The translations under genes were made by a program, and so were the position numbers. A stretch of DNA of 64,000 bases. Source: Selenomonas ruminantium subsp. ruminantium ATCC 12561 (GTDB lineage: Bacteria; Bacillota; Negativicutes; Selenomonadales; Selenomonadaceae). Under the pieces are notes generated by a model. That model worked only from the letters and a program-made list of their open reading frames with translations. It was not told the DNA's origin and made no database searches. The DNA lies in the NCBI RefSeq assembly GCF_000424065.1, contig NZ_KE384126.1:14637-78636 (forward strand), read 5' to 3'. Numbering within the stretch: the first letter of the stretch is position 1; each line of letters starts with the position of its first letter. Shown here in pieces: positions 3,290 to 59,380 of this stretch.

Positions 3290-3318
3290 TTGCGTAAAGG
3301 TACGTTATTTGCTACAAT
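3290..3318 (+). promoter_or_regulatory. nrdD promoter with possible NrdR box
   Basis: TTGCGT at 3290-3295, a 17-bp spacer and an extended -10 (TGC-TACAAT, 3313-3318). The -10 is embedded in ACAATATATACCGT, which loosely resembles the NrdR-box consensus ACAC-AT-rich-GTGT. NrdR control is inference. Confidence 0.6.
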
Positions 3319-3362
3319 ATATACCGTTACGACATTAAATAACCACAAGATGTAGAGGGGGC

Positions 3363-5660
3363 GTGAGGGATTACCGCAAGATAGCGGTATCCATAGATAT
3401 GAACTTAAAAACAGTGACGAAGCGTTCTGGCCATACGGTGCCTTATAATCGGGAAAAAATCTACAATGCGATTTTAGGTGCGAATAAAGACGCTGGCAAA
3501 AAGATGACGGAAAAAGACGTGGACGAAGTAACCAGTCAGGTTGAATGGGATATTCAGGACCGGGAAAACGTCAGCGTTGAGGAAATTCAGGATATCGTAG
3601 AACAGGAACTCATGAAGTATGATTTCTACGATATTGCCAAGAAGTATATCACCTATCGCCAGAAGCATGCGGAACGCCGTATTGCGCAGAAACATCTCAT
3701 GTCTTCCTATAAGGATATTTTCTTTGCTGATGCCGTAGATGTGGATTCCAAGCGCGATAATGCCAATATCAATACAGATGCTTCCATGGGCATTATGTTG
3801 AAGCTGGGCGCTGAAGGAGCCAAGCACTTCGTGGATAATTATGTGCTCACCGATGAGTTCCGGGAAGCGGATAAGGAGAACTGGATTCATATTCACGACA
3901 AGGATTTCTCCCTGATTACGTTTAACTGCTGTCAGATTGACCTCTTAAAGCTTTTTAAGGGTGGTTTTTCCACGGGACATGGTTTCCTGCGTGAGCCGAA
4001 TTCCATTCGTTCTTATGCCTCTTTGGCAGCGATTGCCATTCAGTCCAATCAGAACGATATGTTCGGCGGCCAGGCCATCAACGCCTTTGACTATGCGATG
4101 GCCGATGGTGTGCGCAAGTCTTTCCGCAAGGCCGTTATCAGCGAAGCCCATAAGGCGCTGATGTACCAGTTTGATGAGCAGGATTTCGGTACGGAAAAAG
4201 AATTTAAGGCTGTGTTCAAGCCGGCTATGGATTTCAGCGCCTGCAGCTATACTGAAAAGAAGGAAGACCCACGGGCAGCTGAATCTGTACAGGCCATTAA
4301 GCAGGCACTGGAATGTGTGATGACTGACCATTATCATCTGCCTGTGGACGAATCTGCTCGTCTGGCACGCAATGTTTATCGTCTGGCCTGCGCTGATGTG
4401 GTGGAAGAAACCCATCAGGCCATGGAGGCGATGATTCATAACTTCAACACCCTGCACAGCCGTGCAGGTGCGCAGGTGCCGTTCAGCTCGCTGAACTACG
4501 GCATGGATATAAGTCCCGAGGGCCGTTTGGCTACCCGCGAGGTCTTGAATGCCATTTGGTCGGGGCTGGGCAACGGAGAAACGCCGATTTTCCCGATTTC
4601 AGTATTCCAGTTAAAGGCCGGGGTCAACTATAATCCCGAAGACCCCAATTACGATTTGTTCCAACAGGCCTGCAAGGTCAGTGCCAAACGTCTGTTCCCG
4701 AACTTCGTGAACATCGATGCGCCTTACAATCTGCAATACTATAAGCCGGGGGATTACAATTCCACGGTGGCTACAATGGGCTGCCGCACCCGTGTCATGA
4801 GCAATGTAAACGGCCCGGAAGAATCTGGCAGCCGTGGCAATTTTGCCTTTACGACCATCAACCTGCCTAAGCTGGCATTGGAAGCCAAGGGCGATATGGA
4901 CAAATTCTGGCAGCTTTACGATAAATATATCGAAATCAGCCATGATTATATCCAGGCCCGTCTGGCGGTGATTGCAGAAAAGCATGTCTACAACTACCCG
5001 TTCCTCATGGGGCAGGGCGTTTGGATGGACAGCGAAAAACTGCGTCCGGATGACAGCATCAAGGATGTGCTGAAACATGCTTCCTATTCGGTAGGCTTCT
5101 GTGGTCTGGCTGAGTGTCTCAAGGCGCTTATCGGCAAGCACCATGGTGAAAGTGCTGAGGCGCAGGAATTGGGCCTCAAGATTGTCGGTCATCTGCGTGA
5201 GCGCATGGATAAATATACGGAAGAAGAGCATATGAACTGGTCCTGCTTTGCTACGCCGGCAGAATCCACGGCTGGCCAGTTCCAGCGTTCTAACCGCAAG
5301 GTTTACGGCGTGATTGAGGGCGTTACGGACAGGGATTACATGACCAACAGTTCTCATGTGCCGGTATATTATCCGATTAAGGCCATCGACAAGATTCGCA
5401 TTGAGGCGCCTTATCATGCACTGGAAAATGCGGGTCATATTGCTTACATTGAAATGGATGGCGACCCGACGAAGAATGTGAAGGCCTTTGAACGTCTGGT
5501 GCGGGCTATGCATGATGCGGATATGGGGTATTTTTCCATCAACCATCCGGTGGACCGTGACCCAGTGTGCGGGTATACGGGGCTTATCGAAAATGAGTGT
5601 CCGCATTGTCATCGCAAAGAAGTGGAGACGGGGCGGTTCACGATTAAACGCATGAAGTAA
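3363..5660 (+). CDS. nrdD: Anaerobic ribonucleoside-triphosphate reductase, C-terminally truncated
   Basis: This is a class III ribonucleotide reductase large subunit (765 residues). It has an N-terminal ATP-cone (about 15-105) and a ten-stranded barrel with the first conserved cysteine (FNCCQID) and the thiyl-radical cysteine (MGCRTRV). The C-terminal zinc region is incomplete: VCGYTG and CPHCH are visible, but the first cysteine of the usual CxxC is Asp. The chain stops at FTIKRMK, where the family normally continues into the RxxGYL glycyl-radical loop and about 25 more residues. No GYL is readable in any frame before the repeat array at 5689. The start is GTG 3363 (AGAGGGGG site); ATG 3399 is possible. 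No nrdG activase follows. It is either an inactivated gene or one needing a radical domain in trans. Confidence 0.85.
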   Translation: MRDYRKIAVSIDMNLKTVTKRSGHTVPYNREKIYNAILGANKDAGKKMTEKDVDEVTSQVEWDIQDRENVSVEEIQDIVEQELMKYDFYDIAKKYITYRQKHAERRIAQKHLMSSYKDIFFADAVDVDSKRDNANINTDASMGIMLKLGAEGAKHFVDNYVLTDEFREADKENWIHIHDKDFSLITFNCCQIDLLKLFKGGFSTGHGFLREPNSIRSYASLAAIAIQSNQNDMFGGQAINAFDYAMADGVRKSFRKAVISEAHKALMYQFDEQDFGTEKEFKAVFKPAMDFSACSYTEKKEDPRAAESVQAIKQALECVMTDHYHLPVDESARLARNVYRLACADVVEETHQAMEAMIHNFNTLHSRAGAQVPFSSLNYGMDISPEGRLATREVLNAIWSGLGNGETPIFPISVFQLKAGVNYNPEDPNYDLFQQACKVSAKRLFPNFVNIDAPYNLQYYKPGDYNSTVATMGCRTRVMSNVNGPEESGSRGNFAFTTINLPKLALEAKGDMDKFWQLYDKYIEISHDYIQARLAVIAEKHVYNYPFLMGQGVWMDSEKLRPDDSIKDVLKHASYSVGFCGLAECLKALIGKHHGESAEAQELGLKIVGHLRERMDKYTEEEHMNWSCFATPAESTAGQFQRSNRKVYGVIEGVTDRDYMTNSSHVPVYYPIKAIDKIRIEAPYHALENAGHIAYIEMDGDPTKNVKAFERLVRAMHDADMGYFSINHPVDRDPVCGYTGLIENECPHCHRKEVETGRFTIKRMK

Positions 5661-5688
5661 GGCTCGGTTTACATCGATATACTAAGAC

Positions 5689-5767
5689 GCCCGGCGGCTG
5701 ATAATACTTTTCCTTCGCCATAGACAGGCTTGTCAAAAGCTGCGGAAAGCATTATCAGCCGCCGGGC
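5689..5767 (+). repeat. Palindromic array element A (forward)
   Basis: Arms GCCCGGCGGCTGATAAT and ATTATCAGCCGCCGGGC are perfect complements, enclosing the conserved core with GACAGGCTTGTC. The element starts 29 bp after the nrdD stop. The conserved downstream flank is CTTAATTTGTACATTACA. Confidence 0.9.
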
Positions 5768-5806
5768 TTAATTTGTACATTACAGCGATGTGCTAAGTGC
5801 TAAGGC

Positions 5807-5886
5807 GCCCGGTGGGGCTGGCAATATTTTCCTTCGCCATAGACAGGCTTGTCAAAAGCTGCGGAAAGCATTATCAGCCGCCGGGC
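5807..5886 (+). repeat. Palindromic array element B (forward, chimeric arms)
   Basis: The left arm matches that of element C (GCCCGGTGGGGCTGG) but the right arm matches element A (CAGCCGCCGGGC), so the arms pair poorly. This is the expected product of unequal recombination between neighbours, and it creates a perfect 119-bp direct repeat in this part of the array. Confidence 0.9.
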
Positions 5887-5925
5887 TTAATTTGTACATT
5901 ACAGCGATGTGCTAAGTGCTAAGGC

Positions 5926-6007
5926 GCCCGGTGGGGCTGGCAATATTTTCCTTCGCCATAGACAGGCTTGTCAAAAGCTGCGGAAAACATCACCAGCCCC
6001 ACCGGGC
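5926..6007 (+). repeat. Palindromic array element C (forward)
   Basis: The left arm GCCCGGTGGGGCTGGCAAT pairs with the right arm ending CACCAGCCCCACCGGGC. The core is identical to elements A and B. The 3' flank TTGTACATTAC is conserved. Confidence 0.9.
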
Positions 6008-6051
6008 TTTAGGTTGTACATTACCTGGAGATTACATCGTTGTGCTGAGAC

Positions 6052-6132
6052 GCCGCTGGGGCAGATAATATTTTCCCTTTGCTTAGGCAGGCTTGCCAAA
6101 CGCGACGGGAAAACATCATCTGCCCCAGCGGC
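6052..6132 (+). repeat. Palindromic array element D (forward, covarying core)
   Basis: Arms GCCGCTGGGGCAGAT and ATCTGCCCCAGCGGC are complementary. The core centre is GGCAGGCTTGCC instead of GACAGGCTTGTC, a paired change (A to G on one side, T to C on the other) that keeps the central stem. The 3' flank is CTTATTGCGTGCATTACA. Confidence 0.9.
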
Positions 6133-6163
6133 TTATTGCGTGCATTACATCGATATGTTAAGG

Positions 6164-6244
6164 CGCGCGGTTGCTGATGATATTTTTCCTTCGCCATAGA
6201 CAGGCTTGTCAAAAGCTGCGGAAAAACATCATCAGCACCCGCGC
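6164..6244 (+). repeat. Palindromic array element E (forward)
   Basis: The left arm GCGCGGTTGCTGATGAT pairs with the right arm ATCATCAGCACCCGCGC, with one mismatch. The core equals that of elements A to C. Beyond it, 6245-6380 holds AT-rich unique sequence in which I see no gene. Confidence 0.9.
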
Positions 6245-57633: not shown

Positions 57634-58932
57634 TTGCCAAAGGTGGCACTTACGACCTTGGGCTGCAAGGTCAATCAATTTGAAACGGAAACCATGGAAG
57701 GCCTGTTCAAGAAAAGCGGTTACGATATCGTGCCCTTTGAGGAAAAGGCGGACTTTTATGTAATCAATACCTGCTCGGTGACGAGCTTAGGAGACAGGAA
57801 ATCCCGGCAGATTATCCGCCGGGCACAGCGTACCAACGATAAGGCAATCATTGCCGTATGCGGCTGCTATTCGCAGGTTCACCCGGAAGAAATCAAGGCC
57901 ATTGAAGGTGTGCGGGTGGTCCTGGGCACGAAGGAACGCAGCAAGATTGTGGAATATGTGGAACAGGCGGCGCGCGAAGACGGTATCCTGGACGAAGTGG
58001 GCAATATCATGGAAGCTCATGAGTTCGAGGATATTCCCATCTACGATATGCCTCAGCGCACCCGTGCATTTTTGAAGATTGAGGACGGCTGTCAGAATTT
58101 CTGCTCCTACTGCATTATTCCTTATGCCCGCGGCCCGGTGAAGTCGCGGCATTTGGATAAGATTCACAGCGAAGCCAAGAAACTCGTGGAGGCCGGCTTT
58201 AAGGAAATCGTGCTGACGGGCATTCATCTGGGCGCTTATGGCAAGGACTTGGGCGGCGAAGTCACGCTGGCCGATGCCTGCCGGGAAGTGCTCAAGGTGG
58301 AGGGCTTAAAGCGCCTGCGCCTGGGCTCTTTGGAGTCCATTGAACTTTCACCGGATTTATTTGCGCTTATCCGCGAAGATGAGCGTTTCTGTGCGCATCT
58401 GCATCTGCCCTTGCAGGCAGGTTCCGATGAAGTGCTCAAGGACATGAACCGCCATTACGATACGGCAGAGTTTGGCCGCCTGATTGAGCAGGTGGAACGG
58501 GAAGTGCCGGGCGTGGCGGTATCCACGGATATTATCGTGGGCTTTCCGGGAGAAACGGAAGAACAGTTTGCTCGCGGACTGGAATTTGTGGAGAAGATGA
58601 ACTTCTCCCGCATGCATGTGTTCCCCTATTCCAAGCGCAGCGGTACGCCCGCGGCGGAGCGCAAGGACCAGATTCAGGAGACGGTGAAAAAGGAACGTGC
58701 GCACCGTATGCAGGAACTGGCAGCCCGCAAGACCGAGGAGTTCCATAAGAGCTTTTTGGGCAAGAGCATGCGTGTGCTGTTTGAAACCAATACCGACGGT
58801 GTTACCGATGGACTCACAGATAATTATATCCGCGTTTATACGGACGATGAAGTGGTCTGCGGGGAGATTTATACCGTTGAGCTGCAGAAGCTGTATAAAG
58901 ATGGTGTTTGGGGCAGAGTAACATCGCTGTGA
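57634..58932 (+). CDS. mtaB: tRNA t6A37 methylthiotransferase MtaB
   Basis: A 432-residue radical SAM enzyme that adds methylthio to t6A at position 37 of tRNAs. The MTTase N-terminal domain (TLGCKVNQFETETM, NTCSVTSLGDRKS, CGCYSQ) supplies three cysteines of the auxiliary cluster. The radical SAM motif is CQNFCSYC, and a C-terminal TRAM domain follows. TTG 57634 follows AAGGAAGAAG. The palindromic array begins 7 bp after its stop. Confidence 0.95.
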   Translation: MPKVALTTLGCKVNQFETETMEGLFKKSGYDIVPFEEKADFYVINTCSVTSLGDRKSRQIIRRAQRTNDKAIIAVCGCYSQVHPEEIKAIEGVRVVLGTKERSKIVEYVEQAAREDGILDEVGNIMEAHEFEDIPIYDMPQRTRAFLKIEDGCQNFCSYCIIPYARGPVKSRHLDKIHSEAKKLVEAGFKEIVLTGIHLGAYGKDLGGEVTLADACREVLKVEGLKRLRLGSLESIELSPDLFALIREDERFCAHLHLPLQAGSDEVLKDMNRHYDTAEFGRLIEQVEREVPGVAVSTDIIVGFPGETEEQFARGLEFVEKMNFSRMHVFPYSKRSGTPAAERKDQIQETVKKERAHRMQELAARKTEEFHKSFLGKSMRVLFETNTDGVTDGLTDNYIRVYTDDEVVCGEIYTVELQKLYKDGVWGRVTSL

Positions 58933-58938
58933 TAAGGC

Positions 58939-59017
58939 GCGCGGTGACCGGTAATACCTTTCCTTCGCTGAGACAGGCTTGTCAAACGCTGCGGAAAGGC
59001 ATCATCGGTCACCGCGC
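58939..59017 (+). repeat. Palindromic array element G (forward)
   Basis: The left arm GCGCGGTGACCGGTAAT pairs with the right arm ATCATCGGTCACCGCGC around a core with GACAGGCTTGTC. It begins 7 bp after mtaB, so it lies in that transcript's 3' end. The 3' flank is CTTAGTGCGTACATTACA. Confidence 0.9.
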
Positions 59018-59050
59018 TTAGTGCGTACATTACAAAGATATGTAAAGGAC

Positions 59051-59129
59051 GCCCAGTGGCTGATAATACTTTTCCTCTGCTTATGCAGGTTTGCCTAACG
59101 CGACGGAAAAGCATTATCAGCCACCGGAC
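59051..59129 (+). repeat. Palindromic array element H (forward, divergent core)
   Basis: The left arm GCCCAGTGGCTGATAAT pairs with ATTATCAGCCACCGGAC. The core centre is TGCAGGTTTGCC, more diverged than the rest. The 3' flank CTTAGTGCGTACGTTACA is conserved. Confidence 0.88.
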
Positions 59130-59161
59130 TTAGTGCGTACGTTACAATGATATGTTAAGGC

Positions 59162-59243
59162 GCCCGTGGGAACTGGTAATATTTTCCTTCGCCATAGACA
59201 AGCTTGTCAAAAGCTACGGAAAACATCACCAGCTTCCACGGGC
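59162..59243 (+). repeat. Palindromic array element I (forward)
   Basis: The left arm GCCCGTGGGAACTGGTAAT pairs with ATCACCAGCTTCCACGGGC. The core centre is the perfect palindrome GACAAGCTTGTC. Confidence 0.9.
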
Positions 59244-59297
59244 TTACTGCGTATAGTGGTGTGTCATATCCTGGTGTTAAGGTTAGGCTGGCAGTAA

Positions 59298-59380
59298 GGA
59301 GAGGAGGGGCGGCAATAGCTTTCGGCAGCGTTTGACAAGCTTGTCTAAGCAGACGAAAGTTATTGCCGCCCCTCCCCTCC
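59298..59380 (-). repeat. Palindromic array element J (inverted terminal copy)
   Basis: GGAGAGGAGGGGCGGCAAT at 59298-59316 pairs with ATTGCCGCCCCTCCCCTCC at 59362-59380, with one G-T pair, around the reverse-complement core. It is nearly identical to the inverted copies at 102 and 6381. A CCTTTTTTA tract right after it could make this copy a terminator. Confidence 0.9.

Follow-up and report, generated by a model that had tools for sequence, protein, structure and literature searches.

A probable split class III ribonucleotide reductase in Selenomonas ruminantium: an NrdD core that stops before its glycyl radical loop, and a small radical protein encoded next to nrdG

Class III ribonucleotide reductases (RNRs) combine a catalytic core and an ATP-cone with a four-cysteine zinc site and, at the C-terminus of the same NrdD chain, a loop that carries the glycyl radical. 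In P. copri NrdD (PDB: 8p23), the radical glycine lies beside Cys416, the tyrosine that follows it bonds Glu581, and Arg719, at +8 from the glycine, bonds an Asn-x-Asn flap (PMC11226230, in the excerpt used here; an offset of +4 in residue numbers between the 8p23 chain and the paper is deduced from Gly711). Another glycyl radical enzyme, pyruvate formate-lyase (PFL), is served by small spare parts; the excerpt of PMC8683613 (2021) counts only two validated ones, both for PFL, and considers parts for other glycyl radical enzymes possible. According to the same excerpt, the spare part YfiD no longer rescues PFL when the cut enzyme lacks residues 696-733, and both the binding of YfiD and the installation of the radical are far weaker when its N-terminal half is removed. 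The present analysis concerns the nrdD gene in a stretch of 64,000 nucleotides from Selenomonas ruminantium subsp. ruminantium ATCC 12561 (GCF_000424065.1, contig NZ_KE384126.1, positions 14,637 to 78,636 of the forward strand; hereafter the window). Its product is very probably the catalytic subunit of a split class III RNR, the radical loop of which would reside on a protein of ~95 aa encoded directly upstream of nrdG.

The open reading frame (ORF) 3363-5660 (+) encodes NrdD, with 765 aa when counted from GTG 3363, although translation probably starts at ATG 3399, yielding 753 aa and matching the core of a member of the same genus (L257, 753 aa). The chain ends in ...CPHCHRKEVETGRFTIKRMK followed by TAA, so that the stop falls at FTIKRMK, just short of the radical-glycine loop; P. 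copri NrdD reads on from the equivalent place with ...HHIDKLQRITGYLVGTTDRWN..., including the radical glycine. PF13597 covers the window protein at profile positions 1-534 of 562 (2.8e-174) and NCBIfam PRK07111 at positions 3-713 of 746 (1.5e-287), and the missing part is therefore the radical tail. A preliminary description, made from the window alone, had placed the stop right before the glycyl radical loop, and the sequence and both profile ends bear this out. The catalytic core and the ATP-cone are present, as is the radical-initiator cysteine, with Cys462 aligning with Cys416 of P. copri NrdD. Furthermore, the equivalents of the residues that receive the radical domain (Cys462, Glu622 and N121-A122-N123) are invariant in A3, an alignment of 12 cores.

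3399..5660, + strand: nrdD core lacking the radical loop; 753 aa when read from ATG (start placed as in L257), within a frame that is open from GTG 3363
3411..3671, + strand: ATP-cone (PF03477, 2e-22)
3759..3767, + strand: Asn-x-Asn flap N121-A122-N123, invariant in A3; a radical-domain contact in P. copri NrdD (PMC11226230, excerpt)
4782..4784, + strand: Cys462, aligned to the radical-initiator Cys416 of P. copri NrdD
5262..5264, + strand: Glu622, aligned to P. copri NrdD Glu581, the bonding partner of the tyrosine after the radical glycine
5559..5609, + strand: zinc-site region with Asp721, Cys724, Cys734 and Cys737, read from the sequence; the Asp (5559-5561) replaces the first cysteine ligand
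5634..5660, + strand: C-terminal stub RFTIKRMK and stop; full-length relatives continue FERIRRITGYL here

The zinc site of the window protein thus reads Asp-Cys-Cys-Cys instead of four cysteines. The replacement of the first zinc cysteine, also pointed out in the preliminary description, is real, but full-length relatives have it as well: Asp is the first ligand in 12 of 12 rows of A3, two of which are full-length NrdDs, and also in fused NrdDs of the family. The Asp therefore predates the split and is unconnected with it. The segment CGYTG, considered earlier as a possible seat of the radical glycine, is part of the zinc-site region and occurs together with RITGYL in full-length NrdDs, so it does not hold the radical glycine.

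The missing loop is found elsewhere in the genome (G000; 3.39 Mb, 67 contigs, 99.97% complete). A search with PF13597 gave two matches, namely the core (1-534) and a free tail (532-562) at G000:C39:11304-11402. The latter belongs to a small ORF, 94-98 aa long according to which start is taken, that ends in ...YVLQPQKFERIRRITGYLVGTIDRWNDAKRAEEHDRVKHTVMH; a new N-terminal domain of ~58 aa is followed in it by the loop that the core lacks (FERIRRITGYLVGTIDRWN...KH). One nucleotide past the stop of this ORF lies the ATG of a 165-aa NrdG, which matches the activase family TIGR02491 above the cut-off (1e-45). With its RITGYL motif in up to 98 aa, the small protein is a free-standing glycyl radical domain (GRD) of the kind represented by GrcA/YfiD, although it matches PF13597 and NrdD families and not PF01228 (Gly_radical), the family of GrcA/YfiD. 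An identical protein occurs in a Selenomonas ruminantium record (L065). These findings support the earlier suggestion that the radical domain comes from a separate GrcA-like polypeptide. The observation that no nrdG is adjacent was right within the window, where neither an RxRRITGYL motif nor an NrdG motif occurs in the 6.3 kb 3' of nrdD (three forward frames), as nrdG adjoins the small gene at C39. The whole-genome search that had been proposed for a second nrdD, an nrdG and a short GYL protein thus yielded the latter two, and the PF13597 search revealed no full-length NrdD in this genome. The genome also has no match to PF02867, the large chain of class I/II RNRs, which is absent from 169 of 189 genomes of the order. 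As neither a full-length NrdD nor a PF02867 protein was found, this organism apparently has no RNR other than the split class III enzyme.

The two parts fit each other at the level of residues. In the small proteins of Selenomonadaceae (alignment A1, n = 20), the radical glycine, the following tyrosine and the arginine at +8 are all invariant, the last being variable in some rows from outside the family (alignment A2). The small-protein profile aligns with residues 700-738 of 8p23 (1e-11). Over nine pairs, pN/pS amounts to 0-0.37 for the N-domain and 0-0.12 for the GRD; both are under purifying selection. In an AlphaFold model of the small protein, the N-domain is predicted to be folded, with the order strand-strand-helix-strand-strand (pLDDT 83-89 by blocks). 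Foldseek returned nothing from the PDB at E<=0.001, and the best hit of a second structural comparison (Z 5.6, ToxR periplasmic domain) is too weak for naming the fold.

The NrdR box is 16 bp long with a linker of 15-16 bp (PMC12176259, excerpt). Tandem boxes of this layout precede both the window nrdD (31 bp start to start) and the operon of the small gene and nrdG (32 bp), and no shuffle (0/60) equalled them at either locus when scored against a consensus. Scoring in the same way 32 upstream regions (17 of small genes, 15 of cores; spacing 29-33; 60 mononucleotide shuffles each), the box pair beat all 60 shuffles in 26.

3312..3358, no strand assigned: tandem NrdR-box-like 16-mers at 3312-3327 and 3343-3358, start to start 31 bp (shuffle test)

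As a mechanism, it is proposed that NrdG would install the radical in the small protein, on the glycine of RIT-GYL, and that this loop would then insert into the core barrel beside Cys462, with the radical passing to Cys462 and back. The zinc site and C-terminal stub of the core, together with the N-domain of the small protein, would hold the two chains together in a complex, the N-domain and the stub acting as two docking parts by analogy with YfiD and PFL. The ancestor of the small protein was probably a spare part similar to GrcA/YfiD; the Selenomonadaceae enzyme would have lost its own loop and come to depend on the spare part as an obligate radical subunit. Judged by its sequence, the core resembles in shape an NrdD cut by O2 at the glycine. 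The chain stops where the radical glycine would follow in full-length NrdD, so that the genome would make permanently what cleavage by O2 makes accidentally, which may be of advantage in the face of O2.

Truncated cores are common among relatives and fall into two lineages, A and B, which are ~52% identical; the window core belongs to lineage B. After removal of full-length cores, duplicates and L001, L035, L009 and L247, a GRD motif lies within 500 nt downstream in 27 of 27 distinct truncated cores of lineage A and nrdG in 26 of 27, compared to 0 of 31 with either in lineage B, for which at least 500 nt were available at 30 of 31 loci (less than 1,100 nt at three; 709 nt for L017). The small protein is nevertheless present in lineage-B genomes, the best match being <=1e-21 in 29 of 31 (tails of fused NrdDs reach ~3e-16), while the other two (G067 and G111) have the small gene in two pieces and also a full-length NrdD. 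Among the sequences read, full-length NrdDs of the lineage A type occur in G127, G141 and G142 and those of the lineage B type in genus g11 (L020, L031, L279, L280); G041 has one as a distant second copy (L270). Five genomes have both an A core and a B core with one small-protein match each, and a single radical subunit may serve two reductases there.

Two truncated cores (A/B) in one genome: L007/L251 (G004)
Two truncated cores (A/B) in one genome: L022/L252 (G008)
Two truncated cores (A/B) in one genome: L023/L286 (G009)
Two truncated cores (A/B) in one genome: L027/L253 (G011)
Two truncated cores (A/B) in one genome: L016/L254 (G017)

Truncation lies on several branches of the core trees. 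A 115-row tree, built from the part of the core outside the GRD, calls for 10 changes of the label 'truncated', at least 8 of which are forced by supported branches; this tree was made by a quick method, has long branches, retains 8 of the phylum-sample rows L205-L234, and includes the window core twice (WIN, L035) and one mislabelled row (L247). The latter (G179), whose contig ends at 5,072 near the match end, was dropped from a more careful tree of 38 hand-chosen cores and is not counted; L019 is also absent from that tree, and G507 (L235) is in neither. On the 38-row tree, 8 changes between the full and the truncated state are needed; well-supported branches impose at least 6 of them, and a single change suffices in 0% of 200 bootstrap trees. 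Truncated rows of lineage B are sister to the full-length rows of g11 (98/94 and 100/93). The changes may represent losses or regains of the loop.

In genus g11, small GRD genes are interrupted directly after the codon of the radical glycine by inserts of 237-744 bp (ten copies in nine genomes). All ten inserts end in G, and the 5' exons end in T in 9 of 10. Group I introns follow a 5' exon ending in T and themselves end in G. Two unlike classes of insert occupy the one site; an endonuclease ORF is intact in 4 of 5 of the long class, with HNH_3 in the one that was scanned. Rfam assigned no family to the interrupted loci (12 loci, gathering threshold), and five loci gave weak unrelated matches only.

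Interrupted small GRD genes, genus g11: L345, L346, L347, L348, L349, L350, L351, L353, L354, L366

Outside the family, a contig scan for the small protein returned at least 587 relatives, of which the best 80 loci were kept. Among these 80, the same two-part proteins occur in records of Clostridia, Ruminococcus, Erysipelotrichaceae, Christensenellaceae, Adlercreutzia, Eggerthellaceae and Verrucomicrobia; at L135 and L144 the match is the tail of a full-length NrdD, and L143, with 53 aa, is a minimal form. Fifty loci were passed on, providing 49 searchable genomes: PF13597 is covered over its full 1-562 in 39 of them, and 38 of those 39 have a free tail too. Since the sample was picked via the small protein, this demonstrates coexistence with full-length NrdD and not its frequency. 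The coexistence that would be expected of a spare part is thus observed in 38 of 49 genomes elsewhere and not in the S. ruminantium genome. In the complete genome of Adlercreutzia hattorii, both a full-length NrdD and the small protein were read. By analogy, a small protein beside a full-length NrdD, as in Clostridia and Eggerthellaceae, is what a GrcA/YfiD-like spare part would look like. A. hattorii has a further 79-aa ORF with an RRITGYL tail and without the usual N-domain, ~9 kb from the full-length nrdD (L309:1816-2055). Of 54 N-domains from outside the family, the Selenomonadaceae N-domain profile matched 46 at E<1e-3 (Z 1000), against 0 of 54 when the sequences were reversed (L074 left out, family and outside separated by hand); selecting the sample for its likeness to the whole small protein favours this rate.

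Truncated cores also occur in these other lineages, where a truncated core and a free GRD protein share a genome in G405, G420, G422, G424, G494, G432, G478 and G507, G478 and G432 being of the same genus. Several stubs end on the radical motif itself (...FERIHRITE, ...FERIKRIR, ...SERILRIRR). An even sampling of the phylum (99 genomes drawn evenly across it plus the own one) gave a PF13597 match in 84 of 100 genomes, the weak partial match of G466 being left out of what follows. The core ends at 531-540 in five (G000, G432, G478, G494, G507) and reaches 560-562 in 78. All five with a truncated core have a free GRD, recognised by both profiles in G000 and G494, by A2 in G432 and G478, and by PF13597 in G507; of the 78 with a complete tail, 3 have one (G461, G477, G502), although these profiles may miss diverged free GRDs. 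In Oscillospiraceae bacterium MH27-2, which has a full-length NrdD as well, a 53-aa GRD protein without N-domain lies between a truncated core and nrdG (L241:3488-3649), so that the N-domain may not always be needed.

A paralogue without the radical glycine accompanies the small protein in S. ruminantium (L311:2469-2705, at G000:C4). It comprises 78 aa, with the N-domain and FDRIRRI but without TGYL, which is absent from all 29 paralogue sequences read (0/29). Every genome of the genus (22 of 22) has a match to it, as do, at E<1e-10, 57 of the 189 genomes of the order. Of 17 loci from other genomes, 12 have it close to a gene that we take from its sequence to encode an Rrf2-like regulator, with a cysK-like gene in view in 8. 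The paralogue is possibly a competitor for the docking site of the small protein. A wider proposal, about as likely as not, is that the small proteins form a widespread spare-part family of class III RNRs that was repeatedly made obligate, with the catalytic gene of several lineages shedding the loop where O2 would cut, the cell thereby hard-wiring the damaged form and replacing only a small radical carrier, one subunit serving two cores in some genomes, and the glycine-less paralogue perhaps plugging the docking site as an inhibitor.

Several observations weigh against the split-enzyme reading. No free GRD was found in G064, G094 and G095 (81-82% complete), which have a truncated core row, nor in G100 (84% complete), which has an NrdD match of unlisted place. 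G405 and G424 contain a full-length NrdD besides the truncated core and the free GRD. The fused NrdDs L003 (G127) and L004/L005 (G141/G142) are nested among truncated lineage-A rows, and the counted changes may therefore include re-fusions, or there may have been more splits than were counted. The outside samples (contig scan, PF13597 genomes and N-domain test) were chosen by similarity to the small protein. In six of the 32 upstream regions, some of the 60 shuffles reached the score of the box pair (36 for L262, 30 for L251, 4 for L019, 2 for L267, and 1 each for L263 and L039). Finally, the radical loop is loosely placed in the small-protein model (pLDDT 52-63 by blocks), and a model of the 12-row core was mediocre (pLDDT 69.2) and is unused as evidence.

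Other explanations for the early stop were considered. A palindromic array of 5 units (5669-6224) begins within ~30 bp of the nrdD stop, and this proximity had raised the idea that the array invaded and cut the gene, leaving a pseudogene. However, the array is absent in 7 of 7 relatives checked (L257-L260, L262, L263 and L268; downstream flanks of 1.2-1.6 kb), and the cores of all seven end within about six residues of the window stop position. With 31 distinct truncated sequences in lineage B and no other RNR found in the genome, array invasion as the cause of the truncation is contradicted and the probability of a pseudogene is practically nil. The same repeat family occurs at three window sites (1-84, 5669-6244 and 58921-59375). 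Likewise, truncated cores are numerous in other genomes, those of relatives included, and this contradicts a sequencing error, the correction of which would restore GYL in frame.

5669..6244, no strand assigned: palindromic repeat array, outside the gene and not its cause (repeat analysis, comparison with relatives)

It is extremely unlikely that the core gains its tail otherwise, through recoding past the stop or protein trans-splicing of the two chains; either would restore a one-chain enzyme, but the 6.3 kb downstream lack the RxRRITGYL motif in all three forward frames, neither the core nor the small protein contains a Pfam intein domain, and the small protein has its own start and a conserved N-domain. 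A PF01228 search of the genome found, besides a sub-cut-off match inside the nrdD core, a 769-aa PFL-type frame at C7, for which the small protein could be a spare part while the truncated NrdD is dead or works otherwise. That the small protein belongs to PF13597 and the NrdD families rather than PF01228, that it is followed by nrdG, that the PFL-type frame has a radical domain of its own and that no other RNR was found make this very unlikely. The coexistence of the small protein with full-length NrdD elsewhere would agree with a free GRD that is a mere repair part, the truncated core normally working without a glycyl radical; yet this genome revealed no full-length NrdD to repair, and the residues with which the core would hold the radical domain do not vary in A3, rendering this explanation exceedingly improbable. 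A split class III RNR with a separate radical subunit remains the preferred reading.

RNR is essential, and in one bacterial family most genomes apparently rely on a class III enzyme with a detachable radical subunit. The analysis also provides concrete candidates for NrdD spare parts in named organisms, including the complete genome of A. hattorii. With a separable radical subunit, the radical could be studied apart from activase binding, and both apart from allosteric control by dATP. For annotation, the consequence is that the core may be called truncated and the small gene missed. No report of a split NrdD or an NrdD spare part was found in the open-licence literature, a scope that does not cover subscription journals and on account of which novelty is not proven.

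Compared to the class III enzymes of known structure (P. copri 8p23, T4 1h78 and T. maritima 4coi), the S. ruminantium system has the same ATP-cone, catalytic barrel, initiator cysteine, Asn-x-Asn flap, zinc-site region and NrdG activase, and the tail of its small protein aligns with the radical loop of 8p23; it differs in having the radical glycine on another polypeptide and Asp as the first zinc ligand. The small protein resembles the PFL spare parts GrcA/YfiD and T4 Y06I in being a small free glycyl radical domain with an extra N-terminal region that complements a core cut at the glycine (PMC8683613, excerpt), as the small protein would do here. Unlike GrcA/YfiD, it belongs to NrdD (PF13597, not PF01228), adjoins nrdG and is apparently obligatory, and its N-domain is predicted to be folded whereas the N-terminal region of YfiD is disordered. 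The split class II RNR NrdJa/NrdJb also consists of two chains with a separate C-terminal module (PMC9669993, excerpt), but belongs to a different class of reductase.
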